IMG/VR virus record: IMGVR_UViG_3300027754_000306
Span: 1-31,084 of that record
DNA: 31,084 nt
DNA from: a virus
Direction: 5' to 3' (one strand)
Within the stretch, counting starts at the first letter, position 1. Each line of letters opens with the position of its first letter. A program made the translations under genes and the position numbers. Shown piece by piece: positions 305 through 27,234 of the stretch. Under the pieces are notes generated by a model. That model ran no database searches, had not been told where the DNA came from, and was given only the letters and a program-made list of their open reading frames with translations.

Positions 305-1435
305 ATGGCTTATACAACCCTGAGTGTTGCATATATCAACGGAGATGTTTTCTCTGCAGGCGACATCAACAATACAAACACAGTTGCCAATGCTTTAAGC
401 AACGGCACAAATCAAGCACTCATTACAACCAAAGGCGACATACTGACAGGCAGCGCAACAGCAAACGCCTTAGCCAAAACTGCAGCAGGTTCAAACAACA
501 CAGTTCTTTATGCAAACAGCGCAGCATCAGGTGGCGTGTCATGGGGATTAGTAACATCAGCAATGATTACTGATGCCACTATTACAGGCACAGACATCGC
601 AGCAGGCACAATCACTTCTTCAAACATTACTGATGCCACTATTACAGGCACGGACATCGCAGCAAGCACAGTTACATCAAGCAACATTGCGGATGACACA
701 ATCGTTAATGCTGACATTAACTCTGCTGCAGCAATTGCACTAAGCAAACTTGCAACGACAGGCACAATGACAGCAACAACTTTTAGTGGCAGCGGTGCAT
801 CATTGACCAGCATCCCTAACAGCGCAACAACAGCAACATCAGCCAACACAGGTTCAGCAATCGTTGCCCGTGATGGTAGTGGTGAGTTTGCTGCAACCTT
901 TGCATCGTTTGCAGGTAGAAGCATTGGTGGTCTTGAATATGCACCAGCAATTACTTGTGGTGCTGCACCTACTACAAGTTCAACGGGTGTCTTGCGTGTT
1001 GGCAACTACACAAGCGGTTCAACTTGCATTACAACAAACAGCACAACAGGTGGAACGGTTTATCACATGGCGTTTCATTCAAGTGGAACTGTTGTAGGTG
1101 GCATCTCATCTTCTGGTGGCACAACCTCTTTCAATACTTCATCTGATTATCGGCTAAAAGAAAATGTTGTGCCTCTTAGCAATGCGCTGGCGCAAATTGA
1201 TTTGTTGCGACCAAAACAATACAACTTCATTATTGAACCTGATAAAACGCATCACGGTTTCATTGCTCACGAACTCGCAGAAATAGTGCCGTATGCAGTG
1301 ACAGGTGAAAAAGATGCACTAGATAATGAAGGCAACATACGCCCACAGCAAGTTGATTACTCAAAACTTACAGGCTTGCTTGTTGGTGCAGTTCAAGAGT
1401 TGTCTGCCCGTGTTAAAGAATTGGAGAACAACTGA
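305..1435 (+). CDS. Tail fibre/spike with C-terminal peptidase S74 intramolecular chaperone
   Basis: This 376-residue protein is built like a trimeric tail fibre. An AGGAAA ribosome site precedes the ATG. Residues 1-90 are Ala/Thr/Asn-rich. About residues 88-147 hold three 20-residue repeats rich in Ile, Thr, Asp and Ala, of the kind seen in beta-helical or triple-beta shafts. The C-terminal 97 residues from SSDYRLKEN match the peptidase S74 (endosialidase-type) chaperone domain: SDxRLKEN, then LRPKQYNF, GFIAHELAEIVP, a VDYSKL block and a final amphipathic LVGAVQELSARVKELE coiled coil. In this family the domain trimerises the fibre and then cuts itself off before the Ser, here Ser280. It is followed by a second virion protein overlapping at TGATG. 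The receptor is unknown; host binding is inferred from the architecture. Confidence 0.88.
   Translation: MAYTTLSVAYINGDVFSAGDINNTNTVANALSNGTNQALITTKGDILTGSATANALAKTAAGSNNTVLYANSAASGGVSWGLVTSAMITDATITGTDIAAGTITSSNITDATITGTDIAASTVTSSNIADDTIVNADINSAAAIALSKLATTGTMTATTFSGSGASLTSIPNSATTATSANTGSAIVARDGSGEFAATFASFAGRSIGGLEYAPAITCGAAPTTSSTGVLRVGNYTSGSTCITTNSTTGGTVYHMAFHSSGTVVGGISSSGGTTSFNTSSDYRLKENVVPLSNALAQIDLLRPKQYNFIIEPDKTHHGFIAHELAEIVPYAVTGEKDALDNEGNIRPQQVDYSKLTGLLVGAVQELSARVKELENN
566..685 (+). repeat. 60-base tandem repeat inside the first tail fibre gene
   Basis: Two consecutive 60-base units start at 566 and 626 and differ at a handful of positions. A third, diverged unit follows from 686. 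Each encodes 20 residues with the pattern ITDATITGTDIAA then G/S-T-I/V-TSSN; the third reads IADDTIVNADI. The period is a whole number of codons, so unit gain or loss would lengthen or shorten the fibre shaft without a frameshift. Confidence 0.85.
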
Positions 1436-1914
1436 TGGCAATTAACCCAAACACGGATTTCTCTGCTGGCGCAGTTCTGACTAGCGCACAACAAAATCGT
1501 TTTCCTCGTGGCGTAATGGCTTACGCCGTTTCAACTACTAACTACACTTTGACAACTTCAACAGCAATAGCAACAGGCATGACAGTGACATGGACTGCCG
1601 TTGCCAACCGTTACTATCGGATTAGTTATTATGAACCGTTAGTAGAAACTTCAACGGTAAGCGCCTCATATACTGCGTTATCACTAAGACCAACTAATGC
1701 TGCTGGCACATTAAATCAACAAGGCATTTTAACAACTGTTGCTGCCGTAAAAAATACTGGCTCATTAAATGTGTCAGTAATTTACAACACTACAGCAGGT
1801 TCAAAAACTTTTGTTGGTTGTGCTATTACAACAAGTATTACAGGAGTGCCGATCTTAGGCAGAAGTGTTTTTAATCCGTCGTATCTTTTAGTTGAGGACA
1901 TCGGACCTTTCTAA
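1435..1914 (+). CDS. Small beta-rich virion protein next to the tail fibres
   Basis: This 159-residue protein has no catalytic motif that I recognise. It starts MAINPNTDFSAGAVLTSAQQN, resembling the AG-x-LT-xAxxN opening common in short phage tail or appendage proteins, and continues with alternating Thr/Ser/Val-rich strands. Its ATG overlaps the previous stop as TGATG, and its TAA overlaps the next ATG as TAATG, so translation is probably coupled through the fibre operon. Its position between two S74 fibres suggests a tail appendage or fibre-associated role. That role is inferred from context only. Confidence 0.75.
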   Translation: MAINPNTDFSAGAVLTSAQQNRFPRGVMAYAVSTTNYTLTTSTAIATGMTVTWTAVANRYYRISYYEPLVETSTVSASYTALSLRPTNAAGTLNQQGILTTVAAVKNTGSLNVSVIYNTTAGSKTFVGCAITTSITGVPILGRSVFNPSYLLVEDIGPF

Positions 1915-1976
1915 TGAAAACGCTTTTGCTTGTTGCTGCTTTGGCTGTTGCTCTCATGGTGTTGGTTACTGCATGA
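1914..1976 (+). CDS. 20-residue hydrophobic micropeptide between the two fibre genes
   Basis: The ORF reads MKTLLLVAALAVALMVLVTA and stops. Its ATG overlaps the preceding stop as TAATG (1912-1916). Its TGA overlaps the next in-frame start as ATGA (1973-1976). A Lys near the N-terminus followed by about 17 hydrophobic residues would form a single transmembrane helix or a minimal signal peptide. The precise coupling on both sides argues for real translation: the ribosome would otherwise need to cross 58 bases between two virion genes with no obvious ribosome site for the second. It could be a membrane micropeptide, or mainly a coupling device for the second fibre. It has no recognisable homologue family. 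Confidence 0.55.
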   Translation: MKTLLLVAALAVALMVLVTA

Positions 1977-3112
1977 CATCTAACACAGCGTTTGGTGTTA
2001 GCACGCCTGTTAATTCAAGATCAATCAACAACGCTTTTGATGCCGTGTTGAACAATGGTTATGACTTCAGCAAGATTGTTGTAACAGGAGACATTACCGC
2101 TAGTACAGGTACTTTAATTTCATTGACTGTTACTGGTGATCTAACAGTAGATACCAATACTTTGAAAATTGACTCAACCAACAATGCTGTAGGTATCAAT
2201 GGTGCTGCTATTGCTAGTTATGGACTTCGTATTGCTAGTACGGGTGCTGGTACTGGCGCAACGGGCGCAGCATTATTGTTGAACGGAACCGTTGTTTCAA
2301 CAATGCTCAACTATCGTGGTGTTTTTCAAGCACCTATTTATCCAGCGTCAATGACAGCAAGCACTTTATATGAGTTTCTTGCTACTGTGGGAGTAGTACC
2401 TACCACTTCCTCTATTGGTACTGTTGTAGGTTTTCGTGCCGAGAACACGCTTAGTGCGCCCACTACTGGTGGTACTGCCGTTGTTACCAATGCTTACGGT
2501 TTCCAAGGTGTTATTGCAAGTGCTACCAACCGTTACAACCTATATATGTCAGGTACCGCCCAAAACTATTTGGCAGGAAACACAGGTATCGCCACAGCAA
2601 CACCTTCTTATCCTTTAGATGTCAATGGAACTACTAGAACTGTTACTGCAATAGTTACAGGCAATGGCATCTCCTACACTGGTTGCACTATTGGTGGCGG
2701 TACTGCAAATGATATGGGTTTGCGTTGGGACTCTGCTTCTTCTAGCATTATTGGAACTGTAGATAACTCTGTTTCAGCGGTTTTGGGTACTGTCTCTGAT
2801 AGGCGTTTCAAGACAAACATTGAAACTTTACAAAACGGATTATCAACAGTAAAACAATTGCGACCTGTTACTTACAGCCCGTTAGATGTTATTGGCTTTG
2901 ATCAAAACAACGAAATTATTATTGGCGATAAACCACCTGATAAAACTCTTGAAGGTTTTATTGCTGATGAAGTAGAACAGGTCGCCCCTTGGCTTGTGCA
3001 AGGCGGTGAGAACGGTGGTTATCAAAGCGTGAACTATGCGTTGATAACACCCATGCTAGTAAGGGCAGTACAAGAACTTGAACAAAGATTAACAGAATTG
3101 GAAGCAGCATGA
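1973..3112 (+). CDS. Second tail fibre with C-terminal peptidase S74 intramolecular chaperone
   Basis: Read from the ATG at 1973 the protein has 379 residues and begins MTSNTAFGVSTPVNSRSINN. A longer frame back to a TTG at 1892 would add a Cys-rich stretch overlapping the micropeptide and is unlikely to be the true start. The shaft is Gly/Thr/Ala-rich, with VVTGDITASTGTLISLTVTG resembling repeats that precede S74 domains. The chaperone domain starts at Ser275 (VSDRRFKTN), followed by LRPVTYSP, an insert, GFIADEVEQVAPWLV, VNYALITPML and a terminal coiled coil VRAVQELEQRLTELE. Self-cleavage before Ser275 is predicted from the family. The two fibres share the chaperone type but not the shaft, suggesting two receptor-binding specificities or a shaft built from two fibres. 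Confidence 0.85.
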   Translation: MTSNTAFGVSTPVNSRSINNAFDAVLNNGYDFSKIVVTGDITASTGTLISLTVTGDLTVDTNTLKIDSTNNAVGINGAAIASYGLRIASTGAGTGATGAALLLNGTVVSTMLNYRGVFQAPIYPASMTASTLYEFLATVGVVPTTSSIGTVVGFRAENTLSAPTTGGTAVVTNAYGFQGVIASATNRYNLYMSGTAQNYLAGNTGIATATPSYPLDVNGTTRTVTAIVTGNGISYTGCTIGGGTANDMGLRWDSASSSIIGTVDNSVSAVLGTVSDRRFKTNIETLQNGLSTVKQLRPVTYSPLDVIGFDQNNEIIIGDKPPDKTLEGFIADEVEQVAPWLVQGGENGGYQSVNYALITPMLVRAVQELEQRLTELEAA

Positions 3113-3267
3113 ACGAAGCACAAGTAGATGCCAATGAAGTTATTGAAGAATTGCTCAATCAACTTAAACAAGCCAACCTACAACTGGCAATTGCAAGATC
3201 AGTTATCAACAAGTTAAATGCAGCGACCACACAAGGGGATGCTGCACCATCAAATCTCGTTGGCTGA
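3109..3267 (+). CDS. 52-residue helical protein in the tail operon
   Basis: The ATG overlaps the fibre stop as ATGA. The product is 52 residues with a likely amphipathic helix, roughly residues 8-38 (VIEELLNQLKQANLQLAIA and onward), followed by an Ala/Gln-rich tail. Such a helix could self-associate or bind a partner coiled coil, for example the C-terminal helices released from the S74 fibres, but this is speculation. It has no Cys and no membrane segment. The stop at 3265-3267 overlaps a CTG in the frame of the next gene. Function unknown. Confidence 0.65.
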   Translation: MNEAQVDANEVIEELLNQLKQANLQLAIARSVINKLNAATTQGDAAPSNLVG

Positions 3268-4538
3268 TCTTCACGCCTGTTGCTTTCCTAGCGTTGTTTA
3301 CTACAGCGCATGCAGAAGCAAACCCAATCATTACTCAACCAACAGATTTCTGGTTTGAGTACACAGAGCCAACACACTTTCTGGCACTAACTTTCCAATC
3401 TGGCGAACTGCCAAGTGACCCTCAACTATGGCTTTACAACGCCACCACAGAAGAACTTATTATTTCAGTTGATGACTTTCTAGGGTTGCAGTCACGCATT
3501 GAAATAGATTTGCCTGCTGGTTCTTACCGTCTTAGGGCTAGTACTTGTTGTGGTGAACCTGATGTGTGGCGTGATGGTGTTGTTTGGAACATCCAATATG
3601 AGTTATCTTTCACAGGGGAACAGTCTTTGCCTACCACCTCTGTTGCGTTATCAACGACCACAACCAGTTCCACCACCACAACAACGACGACAACGGAAGT
3701 TCCCACAACAACCACAACAGAACCTCAGACAACCACAACAGAGCCGTTACCTCAAGCCACAACAACACAACCACTGATAGTGATATCAACCACCACGCCA
3801 GAAACTTCTTCATCAACTTCATTACCACATTCAACCACATCATGGGACATGCCAACAACATCCATAGTTATAACGACGACGAGTACTACTATTGTTCCAG
3901 AAACGATTGCGCCTGCAACGACAGAGGTAACGACATCGCCCCCACAAACAGTATCTTTGACGACGACGAGCACGCCAACGCCTACCAGCGTGCCATTGCC
4001 CACGCTTGGAACAACGCTGCCAACGACCTCATCAACCACATCAACAACAGATGTGCCTGCGAGTCTTGTACCAACAACAGTTCCATCAGCAGAGATACTT
4101 GATAACTCTGTTGGTGACACATTGAGTGATGAAGAGTTTGCATCAGTATTAGATGAGTTGATAACTGGTGATCTGACAACAGAACAAATCACAGAAGTAG
4201 TAACCCAACTCTTAGAGACAGACATCACTTCAGATCAAGCAACACAACTGGCAACCAATCCAGACATCATCGCAACACTTGATGGCGACGCAGCAGAGCA
4301 AATCTTTGAAGCACTCAACATCTCAGAGATAACACCAGAAGAAGCAGCAGCCATCGTTGAGGCAGTGCAAGAAGCATCTGATGAAGTGCGTGCAGCGTTT
4401 GAAGAGTCTGTAGATGTCTTTGGTGGGCAGGTTGATACTTATGTGCCGATTGGTTCTAGCGTGCCTGTAAAGACTCGCAGAGTGCTGATCGCTGCTGCTG
4501 TGGCTGCTGCCCCTGCTATGCGCAGACGCAGTATCTAG
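3264..4538 (+). CDS. Secreted Thr-rich surface protein with N-terminal beta domain and C-terminal helical domain
   Basis: The first standard start is TTG at 3294. However, the frame is open upstream, and reading from about 3249 gives K-S-R-W followed by LIFTPVAFLALFTTAHA-E, a textbook signal peptide with an AHA cleavage site. I place the start at a CTG (3264) that overlaps the previous stop as CTGA; ATC at 3249 is an alternative, and neither is proven. Counting from the TTG, residues 11-107 form a beta-sandwich-like domain with two adjacent Cys (STCCGEPD), residues about 112-262 are a Thr/Ser/Pro linker, and residues 270-385 are helical repeats with acidic patches (TTEQITEVV, TSDQATQLA, TPEEAAAIV). 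The end has a short hydrophobic stretch and RRRS, like a membrane anchor. The architecture resembles actinobacterial cell-surface proteins rather than a virion part. A host-modifying, adhesin or superinfection-related role is possible but unproven. Confidence 0.7.
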   Translation: MIFTPVAFLALFTTAHAEANPIITQPTDFWFEYTEPTHFLALTFQSGELPSDPQLWLYNATTEELIISVDDFLGLQSRIEIDLPAGSYRLRASTCCGEPDVWRDGVVWNIQYELSFTGEQSLPTTSVALSTTTTSSTTTTTTTTEVPTTTTTEPQTTTTEPLPQATTTQPLIVISTTTPETSSSTSLPHSTTSWDMPTTSIVITTTSTTIVPETIAPATTEVTTSPPQTVSLTTTSTPTPTSVPLPTLGTTLPTTSSTTSTTDVPASLVPTTVPSAEILDNSVGDTLSDEEFASVLDELITGDLTTEQITEVVTQLLETDITSDQATQLATNPDIIATLDGDAAEQIFEALNISEITPEEAAAIVEAVQEASDEVRAAFEESVDVFGGQVDTYVPIGSSVPVKTRRVLIAAAVAAAPAMRRRSI

Positions 4539-5632: not shown

Positions 5633-5806
5633 ATGAAACGCCTTCTTGAAGATATAACTGCTTTGGCGTGGACACTCGCAGGCACAGGCTTAGTTCTCAT
5701 CACGCTCACAGGCAGCACACGCAAACTTGGAATGATCATTGCAGGCATCGGCTTGGCAATCAACCTTGTTGGCTTGCTTGCAAAGATGGGCAAGGACAAC
5801 CAATGA
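5633..5806 (+). CDS. Small holin-like membrane protein (57 aa)
   Basis: The product starts MKRLLEDITALAWTLAGTG and has two predicted membrane segments, about residues 9-26 and 33-50, joined by a short basic hinge (GSTRKLG) and ending KMGKDNQ. This is the size and topology of small phage holins or holin-like partners. Its TGA overlaps the next ATG as ATGA, and the next gene is also a small two-helix membrane protein, followed by the endolysin. The pair may be a holin/antiholin or two-component holin; which one forms the pore cannot be told from sequence. No strong Shine-Dalgarno site is visible. Confidence 0.75.
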   Translation: MKRLLEDITALAWTLAGTGLVLITLTGSTRKLGMIIAGIGLAINLVGLLAKMGKDNQ

Positions 5807-6033
5807 AAACAATTGTGCTGAGAGTTTCTGCAGTCTTTGCTTATTCATCTATGTCCATCATTGGTGGTGCATCTGTACTTGGTGGCATCCCTGTTTGGAA
5901 AAGCGCAGTTCTGGCAGGCATCGTTGCTGTTGCTCAGGTCGTTGAGAAACTGGCTAGAGCGTATGCAGACGATGGCAGGATTTCAAAACTAGAACTTAAT
6001 GAAGCCTTTGGCACAACAAAGAAAGTTGATTAA
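5803..6033 (+). CDS. Holin-like membrane protein (76 aa)
   Basis: I start the gene at the ATG at 5803 (MKTIVLRVSAVFAYSSMSII), which overlaps the previous stop as ATGA; the frame is open back to 5668, but that is inside the previous gene. Two hydrophobic segments (about residues 6-27 and 33-49) are followed by an amphipathic C-terminus, KLARAYADDGRISKLELNEAFG. The DDG-x-I-x-x-x-E-L-N-x-A-F ending is common in actinophage holins next to endolysins. It should form or regulate the inner-membrane lesion that lets the endolysin reach the cell wall. The next start is one base after its stop. Confidence 0.75.
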   Translation: MKTIVLRVSAVFAYSSMSIIGGASVLGGIPVWKSAVLAGIVAVAQVVEKLARAYADDGRISKLELNEAFGTTKKVD

Positions 6034-6034
6034 A

Positions 6035-6502
6035 ATGAGCGTTAGACCATACACAGGGAACAAAGACGCAGTGCACGCAGCAAAGCGTGAAGGCACAAAA
6101 GCATTTGTTGATTACTGCTGCTACTTATTCGGCGTAAAGAACATTGGCATCTTCAATGATCGCAACATGGTTGGCACAACACCAGCAAAGAAATCTGTGC
6201 ATGCAACATGGCGTGCAACCGATCTGCAAGGCACTGCAGAGCAACGCATCAAGTTAATCACCTTCTTGTTTGATCATCGTGACGCATTAGGTATTGAAGA
6301 GATACACGATTACGCAGGCAGTTACAAAGTGAACCCACTTGGTTGGGGTGCTGGTTACCGTTGTGATCGTGATGCTTGGCGAGTGTACGACAAGAACACG
6401 ATTGGTTCAAAGGGTGCTAATTGGGTGCATGTAGAAATCTCGCCTTCAATGGCTGATGATGTAAACGCTGTCCACGCAGCCTTCAAAACAATCTTTGGCT
6501 GA
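6035..6502 (+). CDS. Endolysin, M15/VanY-like zinc peptidase
   Basis: Starting at the ATG at 6035 the protein has 155 residues. The motif SVHATWRATDL (His56, Asp63) matches the S-x-H-x(6)-D metal-binding signature of the M15/LAS peptidases, and WVHVEIS near the end (His132, Glu134) matches the final H-x-E/H metal site. The family cleaves peptide bonds in peptidoglycan stem peptides or cross-bridges. A GAGYRCDRDAWRVYDKN segment lies between. There is no signal peptide, in line with holin-dependent release, and no separate cell-wall-binding domain. The gene sits between holin-like genes, which supports a lysis role. An in-frame ATG at 5999 would overlap the holin and is less likely. Confidence 0.82.
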   Translation: MSVRPYTGNKDAVHAAKREGTKAFVDYCCYLFGVKNIGIFNDRNMVGTTPAKKSVHATWRATDLQGTAEQRIKLITFLFDHRDALGIEEIHDYAGSYKVNPLGWGAGYRCDRDAWRVYDKNTIGSKGANWVHVEISPSMADDVNAVHAAFKTIFG

Positions 6503-6726: not shown

Positions 6727-6776
6727 TTAAATAAAGAAATCTGGTAACAAAGCCAAACTCTGCCACACCCATGCGC

Positions 6777-6788
6777 TATATTATCAGC
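6777..6788 (+). promoter_or_regulatory. Candidate leaderless -10 element for the exonuclease operon
   Basis: TATATT at 6777-6782 is followed by exactly six bases (ATCAGC) and the ATG at 6789, the same geometry as in the five cassette promoters. No convincing -35 element or upstream box is present, so it would be a different promoter class. No ribosome site precedes the ATG, which supports leaderless translation. It also argues for the start at 6789 over the in-frame ATG at 6771, which would lie upstream of this element. Confidence 0.5.
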
Positions 6789-7709
6789 ATGAATAAAACA
6801 GAGATAATTAAACCAAAGCACGGCAGCCTCAAATGGCAAGCCGTAAGGCATCGTGACAGCAACAAGCATTGTGTTGTTGGCGCAAGTGAAGTAGCAGTAA
6901 TCATGGGCGACAGTCCATACGAAACTATTACTGATCTTGCTATTAGGAAACTCTTGCCACCACAAGTAACAGACACCAATGAAGCGATGGAGAGAGGCAA
7001 TGTTCTTGAGCCTGCACTCATCGCACACGCTGAGAAGAAACTCAAAGAACCATTGATGATGCCAAAGGTTATGTACTTGCACGGGCGCATCATTGCAACG
7101 CTGGATGCACGCAGCAAGACAAACCCCAACCGACTGGTTGAAGCAAAAACAAACAACACTTATATGCTTGGCAACCCTTTGCCTGCATCATGGATGTGGC
7201 AAGCGCAAGCACAAATGTTTTGCACTGGCGCAACAGAAGTTGTCTTTGTGATCTTAGATAAGAGCATGCGTCTTGGTCTTGAAACCGTGCAACGCCAAGA
7301 AGAACTCATTGAGAACATGGTTACTCAAGTGGAACAGTTCTGTGAAGCCATTGATGCACAACGATTGCCAACAGATGAGCCACTGACAGCACCTCAAGTT
7401 TCTTTGTTGCATCCAGAAGCAGCAGGTGAAGTGGAACTTGATGGCAATGGCTTTGCTTTGATTGAAGAGTGGGCAGCCATCAAGCACGCAATCAAAGACT
7501 TAGAAGATCAAGAGAAAGAAATCAAAGACGCTCTGGCTAACGCTCTTCTTGATAAAGAGTTTGGCACAGTCTGTGGACAGCGTGTCTTGTCATTCAAAGC
7601 ACAAACAACAAAACGATTTGACAGCAAGAAACTTATTGCTGACCATCCAGAACTTGAAAACAAGTACACAATCACGAGCACATTCCGTGTCATGCGGAAT
7701 GTGAGATAA
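6789..7709 (+). CDS. YqaJ-like (lambda exonuclease family) viral recombinase
   Basis: The 306-residue protein (MNKTEIIKPKHGSLKWQAVR) carries the YqaJ nuclease pattern. It has VGASEVAVIMGDSPY near the N-terminus, then GNVLEPALIAHAEKK with a conserved Glu, ATLDAR with the catalytic Asp, VEAKT with the Glu-x-Lys of the PD-(D/E)xK core, and WMWQAQAQMF. The family degrades double-stranded DNA 5' to 3' and feeds single strands to an annealing protein, here the adjacent ERF gene 11 bases downstream. The C-terminal third is helical and charged, ending in a mixed segment. Together they form a phage recombination pair used in replication or repair. The start is set by the -10 element six bases upstream. 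Confidence 0.88.
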   Translation: MNKTEIIKPKHGSLKWQAVRHRDSNKHCVVGASEVAVIMGDSPYETITDLAIRKLLPPQVTDTNEAMERGNVLEPALIAHAEKKLKEPLMMPKVMYLHGRIIATLDARSKTNPNRLVEAKTNNTYMLGNPLPASWMWQAQAQMFCTGATEVVFVILDKSMRLGLETVQRQEELIENMVTQVEQFCEAIDAQRLPTDEPLTAPQVSLLHPEAAGEVELDGNGFALIEEWAAIKHAIKDLEDQEKEIKDALANALLDKEFGTVCGQRVLSFKAQTTKRFDSKKLIADHPELENKYTITSTFRVMRNVR

Positions 7710-7720
7710 GGAAAACACCA

Positions 7721-8461
7721 ATGGAAATCATCAAGTTACTTAGCGCAGTCATGGAAGATGCTGGCGCTGTTCGCAAGAGTGAACGCAACACGCATCAAAA
7801 CTTCAACTTCAGGGGAATTGATGCAGTTGTTAATGCTGTATCACCAGCCCTGAGAAAGCATGGTGTGGTCGTGCTACCAACAATCAACAGTTGTGTTTAT
7901 GAAACTGTTGTGGTTGGTCAAAACAAAACCAGCATGGGGCATGTGCAAGTGAATGTTACTTACACTTTCTTTGCACCAGATGGCAGCAGCATCAACGCAA
8001 CGGTAAGCGCAGAAAGCATGGACTCTGGCGACAAAGCCACAGCCAAAGCAATGAGCGTTGCCTTTCGCACAGCACTCCTTCAAACCTTGTGCTTGCCAAC
8101 GGATGACGCTGACCCTGATGCCTTCACCTATGAGCGCACAACAGTCAAAGAAGTTGTTGCCAAACAGGTTGCCACAGCAAGCGAGCCTGCAAGAACCGCA
8201 CAAGCACCACAACGCACAACCAAGTTGGGCAGCGCAGGCGCTAAGGCATCTGAGAGCCAGATCAAGATGGCTGGCACTGTGCTTGGTCAGATTGATGGTG
8301 ATGATGAATTGCTCATGGAACTCACAGGCAGAAAGTCCTTTGGTGATCTGAGTGTGCCAGAAGCATCCAAAGTAATTGAGCAGTTGTTAGCCATCAAGCG
8401 TGGTGAAGCAAAGATCAGTTACGACACCAACGGACTCATCAAAGTTGAGGTGACCAAATGA
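7721..8461 (+). CDS. erf: ERF-family single-strand annealing protein
   Basis: An AAGGAA ribosome site precedes the ATG. The 246-residue protein has the ERF-family N-terminal block: NFNFRGIDAVVNAVSPALRK followed by HGVVVLP, then VTYTFFAPDG, and the diagnostic ESMDSGDKATAKAMSVAF with RTALLQTLCLPTDD. ERF proteins, like P22 Erf, anneal complementary single strands and form rings. The C-terminal part (from about residue 145) is an Ala/Thr-rich linker and a small helical domain (SESQIKMAGTVLGQIDGDDE). The gene directly follows the YqaJ exonuclease, the usual pairing. Its stop overlaps the next start as ATGA. Confidence 0.9.
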   Translation: MEIIKLLSAVMEDAGAVRKSERNTHQNFNFRGIDAVVNAVSPALRKHGVVVLPTINSCVYETVVVGQNKTSMGHVQVNVTYTFFAPDGSSINATVSAESMDSGDKATAKAMSVAFRTALLQTLCLPTDDADPDAFTYERTTVKEVVAKQVATASEPARTAQAPQRTTKLGSAGAKASESQIKMAGTVLGQIDGDDELLMELTGRKSFGDLSVPEASKVIEQLLAIKRGEAKISYDTNGLIKVEVTK

Positions 8462-9173: not shown

Positions 9174-9606
9174 GTGCGAAGGCAACCAAGAGAAATGCAA
9201 TGCCACTGGTTGTCCATTGTTTGGCACGCTTGGCAAAGTTAATCGTGATGGCAAGCGTCGCATTAAAGGTTGTGGTGACCCTGTTGCGAGGGGCAAACGC
9301 AATAGAACAAAGGGCGACACGAAAGCACGCAAGGCACGGCAGGCATTGGGAATAGGTGGTGTGAACTCACGCCATGAGGAAGTTTGGGGTGGCGCTGTGC
9401 GTGTTGAAGTTAAAGCAGGCGCACAAGTAAACCCCATCGCAACTCGTTACATGATTGCCGAACAACAGAGCGAACAGCACAGACCAATTGGAGACAACAG
9501 ACCTTTTATGTTGGTCGCTATGCCAGATGGTATGGTTGATGGTCTTATCGTTATGCGCATCAGCCAGTTTGTGACATTTACTGGCACGGACATTCAAAAT
9601 ATGTAA
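9136..9606 (+). CDS. Putative PD-(D/E)xK-like resolvase/nuclease with N-terminal Cys cluster
   Basis: The 156-residue product begins with a Cys cluster (CEGNQEKCNATGCPLFG, later GCGDP), then a very basic segment (GKRNRTKGDTKARKARQALG). A core follows: SRHEEVWGGAVRVEVKAGAQ, IATRYMIAEQQSEQ and RPFMLVAMPDGMVDGLIVMRI. The HEE, E-V-K and Q residues fit the order expected for a PD-(D/E)xK nuclease, and proteins of this shape are often annotated as Holliday-junction resolvases in actinophages. It would act on recombination or replication intermediates with the YqaJ/ERF pair. It overlaps the upstream gene by 38 bases; no better in-frame start is visible. The fold assignment is inferred. Confidence 0.62.
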   Translation: MKDTTNLLKEKNECEGNQEKCNATGCPLFGTLGKVNRDGKRRIKGCGDPVARGKRNRTKGDTKARKARQALGIGGVNSRHEEVWGGAVRVEVKAGAQVNPIATRYMIAEQQSEQHRPIGDNRPFMLVAMPDGMVDGLIVMRISQFVTFTGTDIQNM

Positions 9607-9635
9607 TGGCGAGCCCGTCGCAAGGCTCGCCATTA
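9604..9635 (+). terminator. Perfect 12-bp hairpin after the recombination operon
   Basis: TAATGGCGAGCC (9604-9615) is the exact reverse complement of GGCTCGCCATTA (9624-9635), with an eight-base loop. It starts within the stop codon of the resolvase-like gene. No T-tract follows, so it may be a weak terminator, a processing site or an mRNA stabiliser rather than a standard intrinsic terminator. The next gene starts 22 bases downstream. Confidence 0.65.
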
Positions 9636-9657
9636 CCAACACAAGTAGGGGTGTGTT

Positions 9658-10269
9658 ATGGAAAATGATATCAGTGACCATGTGGTTACAAGCAACTTTG
9701 TGATCGTGCCTGAGTGGGTTTTGTTGCTGCCAATTACTGCGACAGCGTTGCGTGTTTACTGCGTCATCCGTAAGCATGCTGATAGCAAAACAGGTCAGTG
9801 CTTTCCATCAAGAAAACTTATTGCAACCAAAGCCAGATGCAGTGTTGCCACAGTTGATCGTTGCACCAAAGAACTTGCAACCAATGGCGCTCTTGTTATT
9901 CGCAAGCGCAAGAACAAAGCAGGAGACTGGACCAGCAACCTTTACACCATCGTTGCGCAACCCACAGATTGTCCACAACCTTATGAACAGGTAGCCACAA
10001 AAGATGCACTACCTACCCTCAAAAAAAGGGCTAGGGGTGGCATCAAAAGAATGGCATTAACTAGAACCATTACTAACCAGAAACAAGAACTGGTGAAGTA
10101 CGATTACAAACAACGACAAGACTTGTCTTTAGGTGCTGCCCTGTTCCACACGGGCACAACGCTTGCTGAGGTAAAAAAAGCAGCGCAAGACATGCAAGGC
10201 ATTAGAGAACTCGTAATTGGTGAATACCTACGACTCTGCCAAGTTCATAACATCCACCCAAAGGAGTAA
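9658..10269 (+). CDS. Replication initiator-like HTH protein (HTH_36 type)
   Basis: This 203-residue protein has an N-terminal helix-turn-helix of the replisome-organiser or HTH_36 type. It shows NFVIVPEWVLLLPITATALRV, then YCVIRKHADSKTGQCFPSRK, then LIATKARCSVATVDRCTKEL with NGALVIRKRKNKAGDWTSNLY as the wing. The order Phe-x-x-x-P-x-W, aromatic Tyr, PSRK, tvxRxxxxL and N-x-Y is that of phage replication initiators. The C-terminus is basic and ends with a helical KKAAQDMQGIRELVIGEYLR segment. No helicase loader or helicase gene is seen nearby, so it may recruit host replication proteins directly. A GGGG stretch lies 7-10 bases upstream of the ATG. Confidence 0.75.
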   Translation: MENDISDHVVTSNFVIVPEWVLLLPITATALRVYCVIRKHADSKTGQCFPSRKLIATKARCSVATVDRCTKELATNGALVIRKRKNKAGDWTSNLYTIVAQPTDCPQPYEQVATKDALPTLKKRARGGIKRMALTRTITNQKQELVKYDYKQRQDLSLGAALFHTGTTLAEVKKAAQDMQGIRELVIGEYLRLCQVHNIHPKE

Positions 10270-10273
10270 ACCA

Positions 10274-10825
10274 ATGAGAAAACAAATAAAGAAAACCACT
10301 ATCGCTGCAGTTCTGCTTTTTGTAGGGCTGATCGCTTATGCCAACACAGGTGGCGACCCTGCAGAACCTTCACCAGTGCCCCTAGAAACCACGCTGGTGC
10401 TCTTGCAACCAGTAGAAGCAACAACGACAGTGCCAATAGCAACAACGACCACCAGCACGACCACAAGCACAACAACAACTGAAGTGCCGTTGATGTCTGA
10501 CCCACTTGACTACATTGACGAACAACGCATGTTGCATGGTCGTTGTGGTGAATGGCATGACATGGCATTAGAAGTTGGTTGGCAGGAAAGCGAATGGGCA
10601 ACATTGTCAAATGTGATTTACCGTGAGAGCCGTTGTACCATTGATGCTTGGAACGGTTCAGATGCAGGCTTGACACAAATAAACAAAATCCATACCTCTT
10701 GGTTATCTGACATGGGATGGACACATCCAGAAGATATGTTTAATCCAAGAAACAATTTGCTCTTCGCATACCGCTTATGGGAAACATCAGGCTGGCGACC
10801 TTGGAAAGCAACATCAGGAAAATAA
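10274..10825 (+). CDS. Secreted lytic transglycosylase/lysozyme-like protein with Thr-rich linker
   Basis: A strong AAGGAG site lies 7 bases before the ATG at 10274, which I choose over an upstream in-frame start at 10217. The 183-residue protein has a basic N-terminus and one hydrophobic segment (residues 10-23, IAAVLLFVGLIAYA), making a signal peptide or anchor. A Thr/Ser/Pro linker follows (about 38-72), then a lysozyme-fold domain: NVIYRESRCTIDAW with likely catalytic Glu118, SDAGLTQINKIHTSWLS, and NPRNNLLFAYRLWETSGWRPW. That is the E-S-R, G-x-x-Q-I-N and A-x-x-l-w-x-x-x-G-W-x-P-W pattern of SLT/lysozyme-like domains in actinobacterial secreted proteins. It should cut peptidoglycan glycan strands outside the membrane. 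Its position among early replication genes, not with holin/endolysin, is unusual. Confidence 0.8.
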   Translation: MRKQIKKTTIAAVLLFVGLIAYANTGGDPAEPSPVPLETTLVLLQPVEATTTVPIATTTTSTTTSTTTTEVPLMSDPLDYIDEQRMLHGRCGEWHDMALEVGWQESEWATLSNVIYRESRCTIDAWNGSDAGLTQINKIHTSWLSDMGWTHPEDMFNPRNNLLFAYRLWETSGWRPWKATSGK

Positions 10826-10893: not shown

Positions 10894-11142
10894 ATGGGCA
10901 TCCGCAAAGACAGAAAAGAACTACGCCAACACTCAGCAGAGTTGATCAAACAAGCACGAGTAAAAAACAATTGCAGCCAAATGAAACTTGCTGCATTGCT
11001 CTCAGTGTCTCAGCCTCTTGTGTCATCATGGGAATGTGGCAAGGTAACAGCAAGCATTGATGATCTTGTTGCAATTGAACAAGCATTAGAAATCCCTGCT
11101 GGACAGTTACTCAATGCGGTTGCCTATCCATCTGTCGCCTAA
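10894..11142 (+). CDS. XRE-family helix-turn-helix regulator (82 aa)
   Basis: From the ATG at 10894 the product has 82 residues: a basic helix (GIRKDRKELRQHSAELIKQ) and a Cro/C1-type HTH with SQMKLAALLSVSQPLVSSWE and CGKVTASIDDLVAIEQALEI, ending GQLLNAVAYPSVA. The residues fit the XRE pattern S-x-x-x-L-A-x-x-L-x-V-S-Q-x-x-V-S-x-W-E-x-G. The frame is open back to an ATG at 10777 inside the transglycosylase gene; starting there would add about 39 low-complexity Lys/Asn/Thr residues, so I prefer the shorter form. It may repress phage promoters, possibly through the box found in the promoter cassettes, but nothing in the sequence proves a target. Confidence 0.75.
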   Translation: MGIRKDRKELRQHSAELIKQARVKNNCSQMKLAALLSVSQPLVSSWECGKVTASIDDLVAIEQALEIPAGQLLNAVAYPSVA

Positions 11143-15051: not shown

Positions 15052-15296
15052 TGAGCACCACACACGAACTCACAACACGCACAAATCAAGATGGCAAGAA
15101 GATTGGTTACACCTATCGTGGTGTCATCATCAACGGTTGTGATGGGCGATCAACGCAGTTTGCAATGAAGGTCAGTTGGATTAACGGCATCAAAACTGAG
15201 CGCAGCAAAAGAACATCCATTGCACGCACATGCGCCAAGATTGATTACTTGATTGATGGTGGCTTTCGCACACCCAACGCAGAAGGCGTGATGTGA
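15051..15296 (+). CDS. 81-residue basic accessory protein
   Basis: The start is the ATG of TGATG at 15051; an in-frame start at 14976 lies inside the neighbour. The product (MSTTHELTTRTNQDGKKIGY) includes TYRGVIINGCDGRSTQFAMK and KTERSKRTSIARTCAKIDYL. The Y-R/K-G-x-x-I motif also occurs in the products at 13561 (YKGVAIG) and 16416 (YNGIDIYR), which hints at a common small fold. The helix at the end resembles the 14414 product. Function unknown. Confidence 0.7.
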   Translation: MSTTHELTTRTNQDGKKIGYTYRGVIINGCDGRSTQFAMKVSWINGIKTERSKRTSIARTCAKIDYLIDGGFRTPNAEGVM

Positions 15297-15769
15297 TGAG
15301 CGCAGACAAGAAAGCACAACAACTCATTGAGCACATCGGCTTTGATGTCCACAAAGAAGCAAACAAACTCTGGAAGATCATTGAGAAACAACACAAGGCA
15401 AGCAAGTCACGACTCATAATCAAAATGCCTGCACTGGTCATTCACAAATGTAATCGCAGGACTTCTTCAGGTATCTGCTACTACAACAAAAAGACTGTGA
15501 GCCTCAGCCTTGGTCGTGACACTGTAAGAGCATGGGTTGTGCTGGCACATGAACTCAACCATGCAGCAGGGTACATAGCGCATGACAGAGCCTTCTATCA
15601 CGCTCTCAAAGCCATCACGGAAGCACGATGGAAAACCAGAATTAGTTTCTATGAGGTGGGGCGCTATGGCTATGCCGTTGATGCAATCATTGAAGAACAG
15701 TTGAATAAGGCTGGTTCTGTCCAATTCAAAAGCCCTGCTAGATCACCTATTTTGAAAAATGTTGCGTAA
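15296..15769 (+). CDS. SprT-like zinc metalloprotease-type protein
   Basis: The 157-residue product contains AWVVLAHELNHAAGYIAHDRAF. His85, Glu86 and His89 form an H-E-x-x-H zinc site, and His96 in the H-D-x-x-F block is a good third ligand, as in SprT-like zincins. An Arg/Lys-rich region precedes it (KCNRRTSSGICYYNKKTVSL with two Cys). The last 13 codons (KSPARSPILKNVA) are not part of the domain: they are the upstream box of promoter copy D read in frame. The coding end was therefore probably replaced when the promoter cassette arrived, or the box evolved within coding DNA. A proteolytic role on a DNA-bound or host protein is possible. Confidence 0.72.
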   Translation: MSADKKAQQLIEHIGFDVHKEANKLWKIIEKQHKASKSRLIIKMPALVIHKCNRRTSSGICYYNKKTVSLSLGRDTVRAWVVLAHELNHAAGYIAHDRAFYHALKAITEARWKTRISFYEVGRYGYAVDAIIEEQLNKAGSVQFKSPARSPILKNVA

Positions 15770-17687: not shown

Positions 17688-18167
17688 ATGGCTACTGCTG
17701 GTAGGAAACCAAAACCGCTTGAAGAGAAGTTGCGTGTTGGCAATGTTGGTAAACGCAAGTTGCCTGCGCTTGCTTCTATTGCTGCTCTTCCTGTTTCGTT
17801 TGTGCCTGAGCCTCATCGCCCTTTGATGGGTAGTCGTAGTGGTGGTTTGGGTGCAGGGCAGCAGTTGTGGAAAATGATTTGGGAGTCTGGCTCGCCTTGG
17901 TTGCGTGTTGAGTGTGATCTTGAATTGGTGATGATTGTTTGTGAGCAGACTGATGAGCGCACTTTGCTTAGAGATAAGTTGTTTCGCAATGGGATTGATT
18001 GGCGTGAGCGTGCTGGTTTGCGCATGCTTGAAAAACAGATTGCTAATAATCTTTCGCAGTTGGGTTTCACACCAACTGATCGTGCTCGCATGGGGACTAA
18101 CACTGTGAAGGTTGATGCACTACAGGAGTTCCGTGAGCGAGTTGCAGCCAAGCGCACTCAAGCCTAA
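17688..18167 (+). CDS. terS: Terminase small subunit, P27-like family
   Basis: From the ATG at 17688 the protein has 159 residues; a GTG one codon earlier is possible. It begins MATAGRKPKPLEEKLRVGN, the GRKPKP-x-x-x-K-x-x-x-GN opening of P27-type small terminases. It continues with a helical domain (GQQLWKMIWESGSPWLRVEC, LVMIVCEQTDERTLLRDKLF) and ends in SQLGFTPTDRARMGTNTVKV, the L-G-x-(T/S)P-x-x-R-x-x-M motif. The family recognises packaging sites on phage DNA and regulates TerL. The gene overlaps terL by about 35 bases and follows the HNH gene, a typical packaging module. Confidence 0.87.
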   Translation: MATAGRKPKPLEEKLRVGNVGKRKLPALASIAALPVSFVPEPHRPLMGSRSGGLGAGQQLWKMIWESGSPWLRVECDLELVMIVCEQTDERTLLRDKLFRNGIDWRERAGLRMLEKQIANNLSQLGFTPTDRARMGTNTVKVDALQEFRERVAAKRTQA

Positions 18168-19620
18168 GAAGGTTTGGCAGCCCACCTTCTTTACGCCTCG
18201 TATTAACAAGGCTACTGATGGCGACCTTGTTACGCAGTTTGGTTTGGAGTGGCTTTACACATCTAAGGGTGTGCGTGCTGGTGAACCTCTTGAGTTTACT
18301 GAGTGGCAACGCTGGTTATTTGGTGCGCTTCTAGAACGCAGGGAAGATAAGCGGTTGCGTTTTCGTCGTGCGTATATTGGCTTACCTCGTAAGCAGGGCA
18401 AGTCGTTGATGGGTAGCACATTGGCGTTGTATGGCTTGTTTGCTGGTGAGGCTGGTGCAGAGGTTTACAGTGCTGCAGGCGACAGGCAGCAGGCACGCAT
18501 TGTTTTCAATGAAGCGAAACAGCAGATACAAAACTCACCGATGCTTTCTAGCGAGTGCACTGTTTATCGTGATGCGATTGAGGTGCGCAGGTTTGGTGCT
18601 GTCTATCGTGTGTTGTCCAGTGATGGCAAGTTGCAGCAGGGTTTGAACCCATCGTTGGTTGTGTTTGATGAATTGCATGTGCAGCGCAATGATGATTTGT
18701 GGGATGCGCTCACTCTTGGTTCTGGTGCACGCCTTGACCCTTTGACAATTGGTATTACTACTGCTGGTTATGATCTTGATACTTTGGCAGGCAGGCTTTA
18801 CCAGTATGGCAAGAGTGTTGCTGCAGGAGAAATTAAAGATGATGCTTTTGGTTTCTTCTGGTGGGAAGCCAAAACGGATTGTGACATCAATGATGTTGAG
18901 CAATGGCATAAGGCAAACCCCAACCTTGCTCTTGGTTTGATTGACAAAGAAGATATGGAAGTCAGTGCACGCCAGACTTCTGAGATGGCTTACCGTCGCT
19001 TCAGGCTCAACCAGTGGGTGCGCTCTCAGGAGTCTTGGTTGCCTGTGGGTGCGTGGGAACAATCAACAGGTGATGCAAGTATCACCAAAACTGATGAGTG
19101 CTTTATAGGAATTGATATGGCGTTAAAGCATGACTCAATTGCGGTTGTGATTGCACAGCCACAGGACACAGGCAAGATACATTTGCACGCAAAGATTTGG
19201 CATCCAGATCAGACAGGCATTGACATTGCAGAGGTTGAAAATTACTTACGCTTCTTGCATACAGAATACGATGTTAAAGAGTTTGCTTATGACCCTGCTT
19301 TTTTTCAGCGCAGTGCAGAAGCCTTGATGGATGATGGCTTGCTCATGGTTGAGTTTCCACAGTCAGCCCAACGGATGATACCTGCGTGCGGTTCTGCGTT
19401 TGATCTGATCGTGTCTAACAGGATTGTGCATAATGGTTCACCAATGTTCACAGATCAAGTTCTATCTGCAGCACAACGCATGACAGAAAACGGATGGCGA
19501 CTCAGCAAAGGTAAATCACGCAGGAAAATTGACGCAGCAATAGCAATGTGCATGGCGCTTGATAGAGCAACAAGGCGACAGAGCAACACGCCATCACCTA
19601 CCATTGAGGCGGTATGGTAA
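18133..19620 (+). CDS. terL: Terminase large subunit
   Basis: AGGAG at 18124-18128 supports a GTG start at 18133 (495 residues). In-frame TTG/ATG codons at 18112/18115 would add seven or six residues. The ATPase domain shows a Walker A-type YIGLPRKQGKSLMGS (about residues 82-94), Walker B LVVFDELHV (about 176-184) and a coupling TTAGYD (about 209-214). The C-terminal nuclease domain contains FIGIDMALKHDSIAVV (Asp328) and ends with KIDAAIAMCMALDRA, whose Asp is a likely metal ligand. The protein is the motor and nuclease that packages DNA into the prohead through the portal. It resembles HK97/lambdoid TerL of actinophages. Confidence 0.93.
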   Translation: MSELQPSALKPKKVWQPTFFTPRINKATDGDLVTQFGLEWLYTSKGVRAGEPLEFTEWQRWLFGALLERREDKRLRFRRAYIGLPRKQGKSLMGSTLALYGLFAGEAGAEVYSAAGDRQQARIVFNEAKQQIQNSPMLSSECTVYRDAIEVRRFGAVYRVLSSDGKLQQGLNPSLVVFDELHVQRNDDLWDALTLGSGARLDPLTIGITTAGYDLDTLAGRLYQYGKSVAAGEIKDDAFGFFWWEAKTDCDINDVEQWHKANPNLALGLIDKEDMEVSARQTSEMAYRRFRLNQWVRSQESWLPVGAWEQSTGDASITKTDECFIGIDMALKHDSIAVVIAQPQDTGKIHLHAKIWHPDQTGIDIAEVENYLRFLHTEYDVKEFAYDPAFFQRSAEALMDDGLLMVEFPQSAQRMIPACGSAFDLIVSNRIVHNGSPMFTDQVLSAAQRMTENGWRLSKGKSRRKIDAAIAMCMALDRATRRQSNTPSPTIEAVW

Positions 19621-19624
19621 TTCT

Positions 19625-19762
19625 ATGAAGCAACGGATTATCTTTCTCACAGAACTCTTTGGTGGCATCGTGGCATGTATCGGCATTGCAATCTTTAATC
19701 CTGCACTGGCATTGATTGCAGCAGGCACGCTTATTGTTGTTGCTTGTGAGGCTAACTCGTGA
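19625..19762 (+). CDS. 45-residue membrane protein between TerL and portal
   Basis: The ATG at 19625 follows the terL stop by four bases; a longer frame back to 19559 runs through terL and is rejected. The product (MKQRIIFLTELFGGIVACIG) contains two closely spaced hydrophobic stretches covering most of residues 7-42, ending CEANS. It would be a one- or two-pass membrane protein. Its stop overlaps the portal start as GTGA. Small membrane genes at this location occur in some actinophages, but no role is known to me. Confidence 0.65.
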   Translation: MKQRIIFLTELFGGIVACIGIAIFNPALALIAAGTLIVVACEANS

Positions 19763-20934
19763 GCCTGTTTCGTGGTGAGCGTCGTGCTCTGCCTCTCAAC
19801 ATAGATGTAAACCAAGTTACTGCACGCCCTGCCTACTCCAATTGGTCAGGTGAAGTTGTCAATGACAGCACAGCCTTTACTTCATCAGCAATCTTTTCAT
19901 CAGTAACACTATTGGCAGACTCAGTAGCATCAATGCCTTTAGAAGTTGGCAGCCGTAAAGATGGGCGTTGGAAGGCAATAGAATTACCGCCAGTATTCCG
20001 CAAACCTAATGCAGAACAATCAATGTTTGAGTTTGTGCACCAGACGGTTGCCACAGTTTGTTTGCATGGCATGGCTTTTATTTGGTGTCCACAACAGGGC
20101 TTATATCCAACAGAGATGCGCAACATTCATCCAAACCTTGTAGGCATTGAATTGAATGAAGCCAATGAAGTTGTTTACAAAATTGGTCGTGACCTTTTCT
20201 CTAGTGACGATATCAAAGTTGTTAATTATATGCAGTTGCCAAACCAGTTGCGCAGCGTCAGTCCTCTTGACTCAATGAGAAATCTAATTGGAACTGATAT
20301 TGCTATTAGTCGTTTCCTTAGTGCGTTCTATGGTGATGGCGCAACGCCATCAAGCGTTCTAGAAACAGATCAACAACTCACATCGTCACAGGCAGAAATC
20401 TTGCGTGACACTTGGGTAGATACCCATTACAAGCGTCGTCGCCCTGCCGTGCTCACAGGTGGATTGAAGTGGCGACCCATCACCACAAGCGCAACAGACA
20501 TGGACACGATGGCGCACAGAGAACAGATCGTGCGTGAGGTTGCACGCTGCTACCGAATACCACAACACTTAATAGGCGCTGTTGGTGGCAGTAGCGAAAC
20601 TTATCAAAATGTTGAAAGCGCAGGCATCATGTTTGTGCGCCACACTTTGTTGCCTTGGATGCGCAGGCTAGAAGATGTGTTTAACGAAATGTTGCCTGCA
20701 GGTCAAACTTGCCATTTTAATGCTGATGAGTTCTTGCGTGCTGATTTGTCCACACGAGTACGAGCAGCACAAGGACAAATTGCAGCAGGCATGCTCACAC
20801 CCAATGAAGCACGCTTTATTGAAAACCGTGAACCTTATGTTGGTGGAGATGTGTTTGTGCTTAACCTTGCTGGTGCACCAATGGCTGGACCTGATAAAGA
20901 TAAGCCACTAGGCACGGATGCAGATACGCAATGA
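19759..20934 (+). CDS. Portal protein, HK97 family
   Basis: The GTG at 19759 overlaps the previous stop. The 391-residue protein has the order of HK97-type portals: AFTSSAIFSSVTLLADSVAS followed by MPLEV near the start, then LRSVSPLDSMRNLIGTDIAI, a stem/clip region (YGDGATPSSVLETDQQLTS), MDTMAHREQIVREVARCYRI with PQHLIG, SSETYQNVESAGIMF and LPWMRRLEDVFNEML, and LTPNEARFIENREPY near the C-terminus. The dodecameric ring is the DNA gate at one capsid vertex and docks the terminase and the connector. It is followed by an ATGA-coupled small gene. Confidence 0.92.
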   Translation: MSLFRGERRALPLNIDVNQVTARPAYSNWSGEVVNDSTAFTSSAIFSSVTLLADSVASMPLEVGSRKDGRWKAIELPPVFRKPNAEQSMFEFVHQTVATVCLHGMAFIWCPQQGLYPTEMRNIHPNLVGIELNEANEVVYKIGRDLFSSDDIKVVNYMQLPNQLRSVSPLDSMRNLIGTDIAISRFLSAFYGDGATPSSVLETDQQLTSSQAEILRDTWVDTHYKRRRPAVLTGGLKWRPITTSATDMDTMAHREQIVREVARCYRIPQHLIGAVGGSSETYQNVESAGIMFVRHTLLPWMRRLEDVFNEMLPAGQTCHFNADEFLRADLSTRVRAAQGQIAAGMLTPNEARFIENREPYVGGDVFVLNLAGAPMAGPDKDKPLGTDADTQ

Positions 20935-26622: not shown

Positions 26623-27234
26623 ATGGCTGATCTGATTTTTGCAATTGATGTAACAGCATTTAAGCCAGTGTTGCAGGAGTTACTTTACATTGATCGTGAA
26701 ATGTATAAAGCCACTGAAAAGGGTTTGAAAGATGCAGCCAATCCATTAGTTACCAGAGTAAAGGCAGCGTTTCCAAACAAAACTCTTAGCGGTTTAATGG
26801 TTGAGTCTAAAACAAGCAAACGCAGTCATGGTCCTTACCCTGTTTACCGAGTAGGAAAAGTGCGTCAGGCTGTAACAGCAAGGGTTGGTGGGCGCAAAAA
26901 TAGTTTCACTGGTGCGTTCCCTATCTTGCGCATTAGACAACGCAACGGTGCAGCCATGATCTATGACATGGCACAACACGACAACGCACCAAAGGGAACT
27001 CTTGCAAAGAACTTGGTTGCTCAACACAAGAAAAGCGCATCACGCACCATGTATCCAACAGTCCGTGCCAACATTAAAATTATTGAAGCAGACTTGCGTG
27101 CAGAGATTGCTAAGGCAGAACAAAAAGTATCTGCAAGAATTGGTGCTGCTGGTGGAACATCTCAGTATCAGGCAGCAAGTGCACGAGCATCAGCACAATC
27201 ACGAGGCGCAAGCGGAAAGTTTGGTAATAGATAA
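26623..27234 (+). CDS. HK97 gp10-like minor virion protein between chaperone and tape measure
   Basis: The 203-residue product (MADLIFAIDVTAFKPVLQEL) has an N-terminal helix pair with LLYIDREMYKATEKGLKDAA and NPLVTRVKAAFP, then a basic strand region (VYRVGKVRQAVTARVGGRKN) and a helical Ala/Ser-rich end. The A-x-x-I-x-x-x-A-K-x-x-F/P-like pattern is that of the HK97 gp10 neck family. Its position after the chaperones rather than before the tail terminator is unusual, so it may be a tail component of the same fold. A TAGATT ends six bases before the ATG and resembles a -10 element; chance cannot be excluded. TAATG links it to the next gene. Confidence 0.65.
   Translation: MADLIFAIDVTAFKPVLQELLYIDREMYKATEKGLKDAANPLVTRVKAAFPNKTLSGLMVESKTSKRSHGPYPVYRVGKVRQAVTARVGGRKNSFTGAFPILRIRQRNGAAMIYDMAQHDNAPKGTLAKNLVAQHKKSASRTMYPTVRANIKIIEADLRAEIAKAEQKVSARIGAAGGTSQYQAASARASAQSRGASGKFGNR

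Follow-up and report, generated by a model that had tools for sequence, protein, structure and literature searches.

A predicted exported lysozyme-fold enzyme encoded directly behind a replication-initiator-like gene in an uncultured phage

Wall enzymes encoded by phages are usually taken as tools for entry or for late lysis, and a wall-hydrolase motif is said to occur in a tape measure protein. Bacteria of the actinobacterial group export lysozyme-fold wall enzymes of their own, the Rpf proteins. Exported SLT enzymes encoded by phages are already known: the kayvirus Tgl is a secreted SLT-type enzyme with a host-type early promoter, and it brings about lysis of S. aureus only if the membrane has been permeabilised (PMC7150955). 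The family of the protein described here is also represented in databases, by proteins of uncultured Caudovirales carrying an 'LT_GEWL domain' (in BFVD, for instance A0A6J5N1M1), with 86% identity over 81 columns; they are known from their database labels, and no functional study of them was found. The literature that we searched held no description of the family, and a term search of PMC6802176, PMC10202952 and PMC10914622 gave no mention of transglycosylase, lysin or peptidoglycan. New here are the position in a replication operon, the changes of anchor type, the tandem sets, which comprise two classes of active site, the model resembling c-type lysozymes and the Rpf partner of one relative.

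The stretch of DNA analysed, hereafter called the window, comprises an entire IMG/VR record (31,084 bases). Profile matches identify a terminase gene (18112-19620) and a portal gene (19759-20934), and a tape measure gene lies at 27234-29954; tail fibres with chaperone domains (305-3112) and a RecE/Erf pair (6771-8461) were recognised by Pfam and PHROG. A small protein encoded at 15293-15769 carries a metalloprotease-like motif, HELNHAAG, and gives a weak WLM match. The gene of interest runs on the + strand from an ATG at 10274 to a stop codon ending at 10825 and encodes a protein of 183 aa, P0001, with an SLT-like domain recognised by Pfam. Directly upstream lies a replication-initiator-like HTH gene (9658-10269, + strand; PF13730, PHROG replication initiation), and directly downstream an XRE-type regulator gene (10894-11142, + strand; HTH_3), the start of which was set by its likeness to L088 5192-5458. 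Thus the location between an initiator-like gene and an XRE regulator, given in a preliminary description made from the letters, is borne out on both sides. The initiator stop codon (10269) and the ATG at 10274 are separated by 4 nt, and a Shine-Dalgarno-like AAAGGAG, read from the sequence, is situated within the end of the initiator gene (10260-10266, + strand). No Rfam match was obtained at the gathering score, and the promoter scan was uninformative, since it gave fewer matches than shuffled sequence.

With its basic and then hydrophobic N-terminus, P0001 is predicted to begin with an export signal or membrane anchor (residues 1-23; 10274-10342, + strand) without a lipobox Cys; the end of this segment, AYA followed by N, presumably fits the rule for signal peptidase I sites. 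It is followed by a linker (residues 24-71; 10343-10486, + strand), Thr-rich at its end (residues about 49-69) and containing a tandem 12-mer at 10445-10478, and by a catalytic domain with a predicted lysozyme fold (residues 72-183; 10487-10822, + strand), which was delimited by Pfam, model and structural alignment. The signal or anchor, the Thr-rich linker and the lysozyme-like domain with Glu118 had all been claimed before, and each agrees with our analysis. Compared with the nearest relative, L002, the catalytic domain has a dN of 0.028 and a dS of 0.194, and the N-terminal part a dN of 0.116 and a dS of 0.206. By this comparison of sequences the catalytic domain is under purifying selection, and therefore P0001 is not a chance ORF; the relatives found in scans of viral contigs rule out a chance ORF as well.

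The relatives were gathered in two scans. A first scan of viral contigs gave 9 relatives of P0001; the second, in which IMG/VR was scanned using an alignment of the first relatives, gave 97 matches, and 80 of the 97 were kept. Together the two scans yielded 86 loci (some contigs twice) and 54 distinct domains; L061, truncated at a contig end, was left out, and 53 relatives plus the window make up the 54 rows of the alignment. As the search patterns were built around CGE[WY]HD and HPxDMF, the conservation of these motifs is partly by construction. ESRC was not among the patterns, and Glu118 (codon 10625-10627, + strand), the predicted general acid, is invariant in 54/54 rows despite its absence from them; C91, S119, C121, G132, L133, Q135, N137 and W177 are also invariant. 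Position 130 (codon 10661-10663, + strand) is Asp in 38/54 rows, the window included, and Ser in 16/54. The Asp and Ser classes are separated by one tree branch, and an insert and extra conserved cysteines can be read from the alignment in the Ser class. Profile searches of the records behind the loci covered 43 or 44 of these records, not every one; more than one family match was present in 16/43 records, and three in G015. In L030 (5215-6907) and other Ser-class loci, two or three genes for exported lysozyme-like proteins, divergent from one another, stand in tandem. A third tandem type, marked by the motif VPCQEW, obtains only a weak score with the family profile; two of its members were tried, and neither gave a Pfam match.

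Outside these contigs, neither P0001 nor the Ser-class domain was matched in 50,697 records of isolated phages. Two scans of bacterial genome_contigs matched 97 stretches each, none of which encodes a relative; because each scan rests on two short peptide patterns, they do not show that the family is absent from cells. In PHROGs the best match of P0001 was no better than E 0.003, and in NCBIfam it had none. From the sequences collected, the family appears to be viral and to occur in many uncultured, apparently virulent phages.

The Pfam family SLT (PF01464) matches P0001 with 25.2 bits, above its curated cut-off of 21.3, and matches 54/54 alignment rows at E<=0.01. A check by structure prediction had been proposed in the preliminary description. 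A domain model predicted from the 54 rows (pLDDT 87.8), which superseded a poor full-length model made with 7 rows (pLDDT 58.7), has a lysozyme-like fold, for which animal c-type lysozymes gave the best structural alignment. A helix of the model spans residue 118, placing the Glu at the end of the core helix before the G-x-x-Q hairpin; E118, G132 and Q135 occur in 54/54 rows. When the predicted model was aligned with known structures by VIA-align, c-type lysozymes came first (Musca 2fbd, Z 11.1, rmsd 2.0 over 91 residues, 19% identity; hen lysozyme, about Z 10.2); the absence of SLT enzymes among the best 50 matches does not argue against one. Foldseek ranked c-type lysozyme, MltE and MltF together, the best E being 0.012 and none <=0.001. 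The hmmsearch profile search of PDB sequences gave EtgA (8urn and 4xp8; E 0.038 and 0.094) and Bombyx lysozyme (E 0.32), and in the resulting alignment E118 falls on the catalytic Glu of Bombyx lysozyme and D130 on the Asp of DYG. A phmmer search of P0001 against PDB returned linker noise only (IMP dehydrogenase). We take the Asp of DYG to correspond to Asp52 in hen lysozyme numbering. In Table 2 of PMC2976769, Asp52 of hen lysozyme is given as the general base.

Among known enzymes, the c-type lysozymes (GH22) share with the window domain the best structural alignment, the alignment of Glu118 and Asp130 with catalytic acids and a QIN motif. However, identity was 16-20% among the matches listed, the sequence E-values are not significant (best c-type chain 0.32), Pfam matches SLT and not c-type lysozyme, and the cysteine pattern of the window domain differs. 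The EtgA-type secretion-system lysozymes or transglycosylases gave the best PDB sequence matches and share the Glu and the D-x-G-x-x-Q-I-N motif, but the score is weak and no secretion-system genes were seen in the window. Profile, model and alignment together suggest that the window domain is an enzyme of the lysozyme superfamily. The name 'lytic transglycosylase', which had been given to the protein, describes one of two possible chemistries and is uncertain because Asp130 occupies the position where c-type lysozymes keep their general base; for the Asp class, to which the window belongs, the likelihood of a hydrolase is no lower than that of a transglycosylase. The family may form a link between SLT enzymes and c-type lysozymes.

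Export is predicted for P0001 from its N-terminus, and it appears to be a property of the family. A hydrophobic stretch before the domain is present in 53/53 relatives with a readable N-terminus and in 52/501 other proteins of 100-300 aa from the same loci, a contrast that slightly favours the family in that the stretch was sought anywhere before the domain in relatives and in the first 45 residues only in the background. A lipobox was detected by pattern in 21/53 relatives and in 20/53 after L010 was removed by eye; the window, L002 and L022 are without one. The tree requires the N-terminus to have changed between the lipobox and other types at least 8 times, and 3 of these changes are forced by well-supported branches. 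With hydrophobic N-termini throughout, export would therefore have been kept while the kind of signal changed.

The gene order around P0001 is partly retained in relatives. Scanning with the initiator recovered L002 and L088; in L088, of which the initiator is 52% identical, the order of initiator, SLT protein, XRE regulator and HTH protein is kept, and the ATG of the SLT gene overlaps the initiator stop codon by 4 nt. Likewise in L074, of the Ser class, the SLT gene directly follows a relative of the initiator. Within 3.5 kb, 24 of 55 contigs have replication or regulator genes only (initiator, SSB, primase, SNF2 helicase, DUF932, WhiB, RecE or Erf), 14 have head or tail genes only, 17 neither and none both, the functions of neighbouring gene clusters having been checked on single members and the label 'tailasm' having been given by position only. 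In the 14 head/tail contigs the SLT gene is on the strand opposite to the head and tail genes in 8 and on the same strand in 6. Because these 14 contigs place the gene among head and tail genes, the early-like position is not family-wide; the word 'early' in the preliminary description suits the lineage of the window, together with the other early-like contigs among the 24, and does not extend to the family.

The gene had also been described as lying apart from a lysis cassette, and a candidate holin and lysin pair is indeed found elsewhere in the window, at 5803-6502. Its first member is a small holin-like membrane protein (5803-6033, + strand), proposed from sequence and position and without a Pfam or NCBIfam match; the second is a candidate endolysin (6035-6502, within ORF 5999-6502, + strand). 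Under the thresholds applied, ORF 5999-6502 itself matched nothing in Pfam, PHROG or NCBIfam, and it possibly holds an undescribed catalytic domain. A longer homologue (L121 1216-1962; G026) carries PG_binding_1 and stands beside a small membrane protein like that of 5803-6033, which supports a lysis cassette at this place. VanY was found in 22/44 records and the ORF 5999-6502 type in 6/44 with no overlap, so that 28/44 records hold another candidate endolysin; for this reason the SLT-like protein is regarded as an extra enzyme and is unlikely to be the sole endolysin. Amidase_2, considered as the other lysin, occurs in 0/44 records. SLT and VanY genes on the same strand within 4 kb were seen in 0/22 VanY records, and on opposite strands within 3 kb in 6/22. 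The linker of P0001 had been likened to that of a surface protein at 3264; composition is indeed similar, with Thr runs followed by EVP, which is not evidence of homology. That Thr-rich protein is encoded at 3294-4538, no in-frame ATG being seen near 3264-3294, and has relatives in L006, L008, L033 and L035. In L120 and L121, Thr-rich proteins with a C-terminus like its own adjoin holin-like or lysin genes, and the protein may belong to the lysis region.

Starting from what can be read in the sequence, namely the gene, its operon-like position, the predicted fold, the conserved catalytic residues and the separate lysin candidate, we tentatively favour the explanation that P0001 is an exported accessory muralytic enzyme resembling kayvirus Tgl, which would load the wall before lysis; this account is well within reach but stops short of probable. 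That the protein is exported and active, when it acts and what it does in lysis are inferred, as follows. The protein would be translated together with or right after the replication initiator, and its N-terminal signal would carry it through the membrane. With the Thr-rich linker serving as a flexible spacer, the lysozyme-fold domain would then cut the glycan strands of the peptidoglycan of the infected cell, with Glu118 and probably Asp130 doing the cutting. For as long as the membrane stayed energised and repair of the wall continued, activity would be limited; holin action would turn the enzyme destructive, and the wall would be pre-loaded for the separate endolysin, as is proposed for Tgl.

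Tgl (PMC7150955) shares with the window protein the phage origin and a C-terminal lysozyme-like or SLT domain with a catalytic Glu; its signal peptide with an AXA site, its promoter usable before late genes and the separation of its gene from that of the main endolysin have putative counterparts in the window. The Tgl gene is part of the lytic module, where few genes separate it from lysK, whereas the window gene stands between an initiator and an XRE regulator. The window protein further differs from Tgl in its Thr-rich linker, its c-type-lysozyme-like model and its relatives with lipobox or tandem copies, and the two are likened by description, not by sequence. In favour of an accessory lysin we count the SLT match, the c-type-like model, the invariant Glu118, the purifying selection, the hydrophobic N-termini, the initiator-SLT-XRE order in L088, the other endolysin candidates and the virulent-looking records. 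Against it stand the 14/55 contigs with the gene among head and tail genes and the fact that the gene is not beside the endolysin gene; moreover, a lysis helper need not be coupled to an initiator. Members with a lipobox would remain attached to the membrane, an arrangement as compatible with local remodelling as with lysis.

The main rival, somewhat unlikely in our estimation, is that the enzyme remodels the wall while infection proceeds, and not for lysis: a loosened wall would let a slow-growing infected cell enlarge, or would change septation, a job like that of Rpf. It would account for the coupling to replication genes and for the SSB, primase, WhiB and DUF932 genes near many relatives, and it accords with the multiple copies in 16/43 records, the variation of active-site letters across the family and the lipobox in 20/53. 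The 14/55 contigs with the gene among head and tail genes speak against it. As to Rpf itself, the family resembles it in being predicted as exported lysozyme-fold wall enzymes, but PF06737 matched 0/54 alignment rows at E<=0.01 in a search whose control, Corynebacterium glutamicum, gave a match; the window protein is thus not an Rpf, and the comparison to Rpf made earlier does not hold for it. One relative does have a true Rpf-domain gene as its neighbour, which favours remodelling: in the record that contains L059, the SLT gene shares a 4-nt overlap with a gene whose product combines an Rpf domain (PF06737, E 1.7e-14) and a further SLT domain; this is the only one of 44 records with PF06737, in another gene than the family member, and such rarity counts against it. 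The Rpf and SLT/lysozyme gene lies at L059 6336-7472 (G032 about 108226-109362) and has a hydrophobic start.

Superinfection exclusion, in which the exported protein would alter the wall or block the entry path of a second phage, is distinctly less plausible. Some phages have exclusion lipoproteins, and the gene is early-like, its product predicted to be exported and often furnished with a lipobox; it also behaves as an independent unit at variable places, running against the head/tail gene direction in 8/14 cases. On the other hand, an exclusion protein need not show invariant catalytic residues and purifying selection, and a muralytic exclusion factor was not found in the literature searched. 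That the protein is an inactive or binding-only lysozyme-fold protein bearing a Glu is very improbable: the second acidic residue is missing in 16/54 rows, but Glu118 is kept in 54/54 and both acids in 38/54, window included. Least credible of all is lysogenic-conversion cargo helping a dormant lysogen, for which the cargo-like position in some lineages would speak, as a tyrosine integrase was found in 0/43 records and a resolvase-type recombinase in 1/43, many records being perhaps incomplete. The phages of the family are apparently virulent, and the earlier suggestion of resuscitation or growth control of dormant lysogens gains little support from these counts.

WhiB-like genes, of one cluster with one member checked, are present in 16 loci. 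PMC10202952 presents WhiB as a mark of actinophages, and the presence of these genes suggests that part of the family infects actinobacteria; the cluster is not represented in the window, hence an actinobacterial host is for it a matter of extrapolation. A more ambitious proposal is one that we think unlikely though worth stating: the family might be a phage-specific wall-remodelling module of virulent aquatic actinophages, composed of 1-3 tandem exported lysozyme-fold enzymes of the Glu+Asp and Glu+Ser classes, joined in one lineage to an Rpf-domain gene and expressed with replication genes, which would keep the wall of a slow-growing host growth-permissive during phage multiplication and later be exploited for lysis. 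If this were true, viruses would possess in this module an equivalent of the Rpf system, with a domain resembling c-type lysozymes as its basis. An initiator-coupled, presumably exported wall enzyme with its active site kept in many uncultured lineages raises the question of what a phage gains from touching the wall long before lysis. With a domain of about 113 residues, one catalytic Glu and one optional Asp, the protein offers a compact and expressible test case.

Upstream of the operon-like pair, a perfect 13-bp inverted repeat with an 8-nt loop (9603-9615 and 9624-9636) is located 21 nt before the initiator ATG. The repeat is kept in L002 (3464-3476 and 3485-3497) with two paired changes, and a different hairpin of 15 nt is found at the same place before the initiator in L088. 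The inverted repeat of the window might act as a regulatory hairpin in RNA or belong to an origin.
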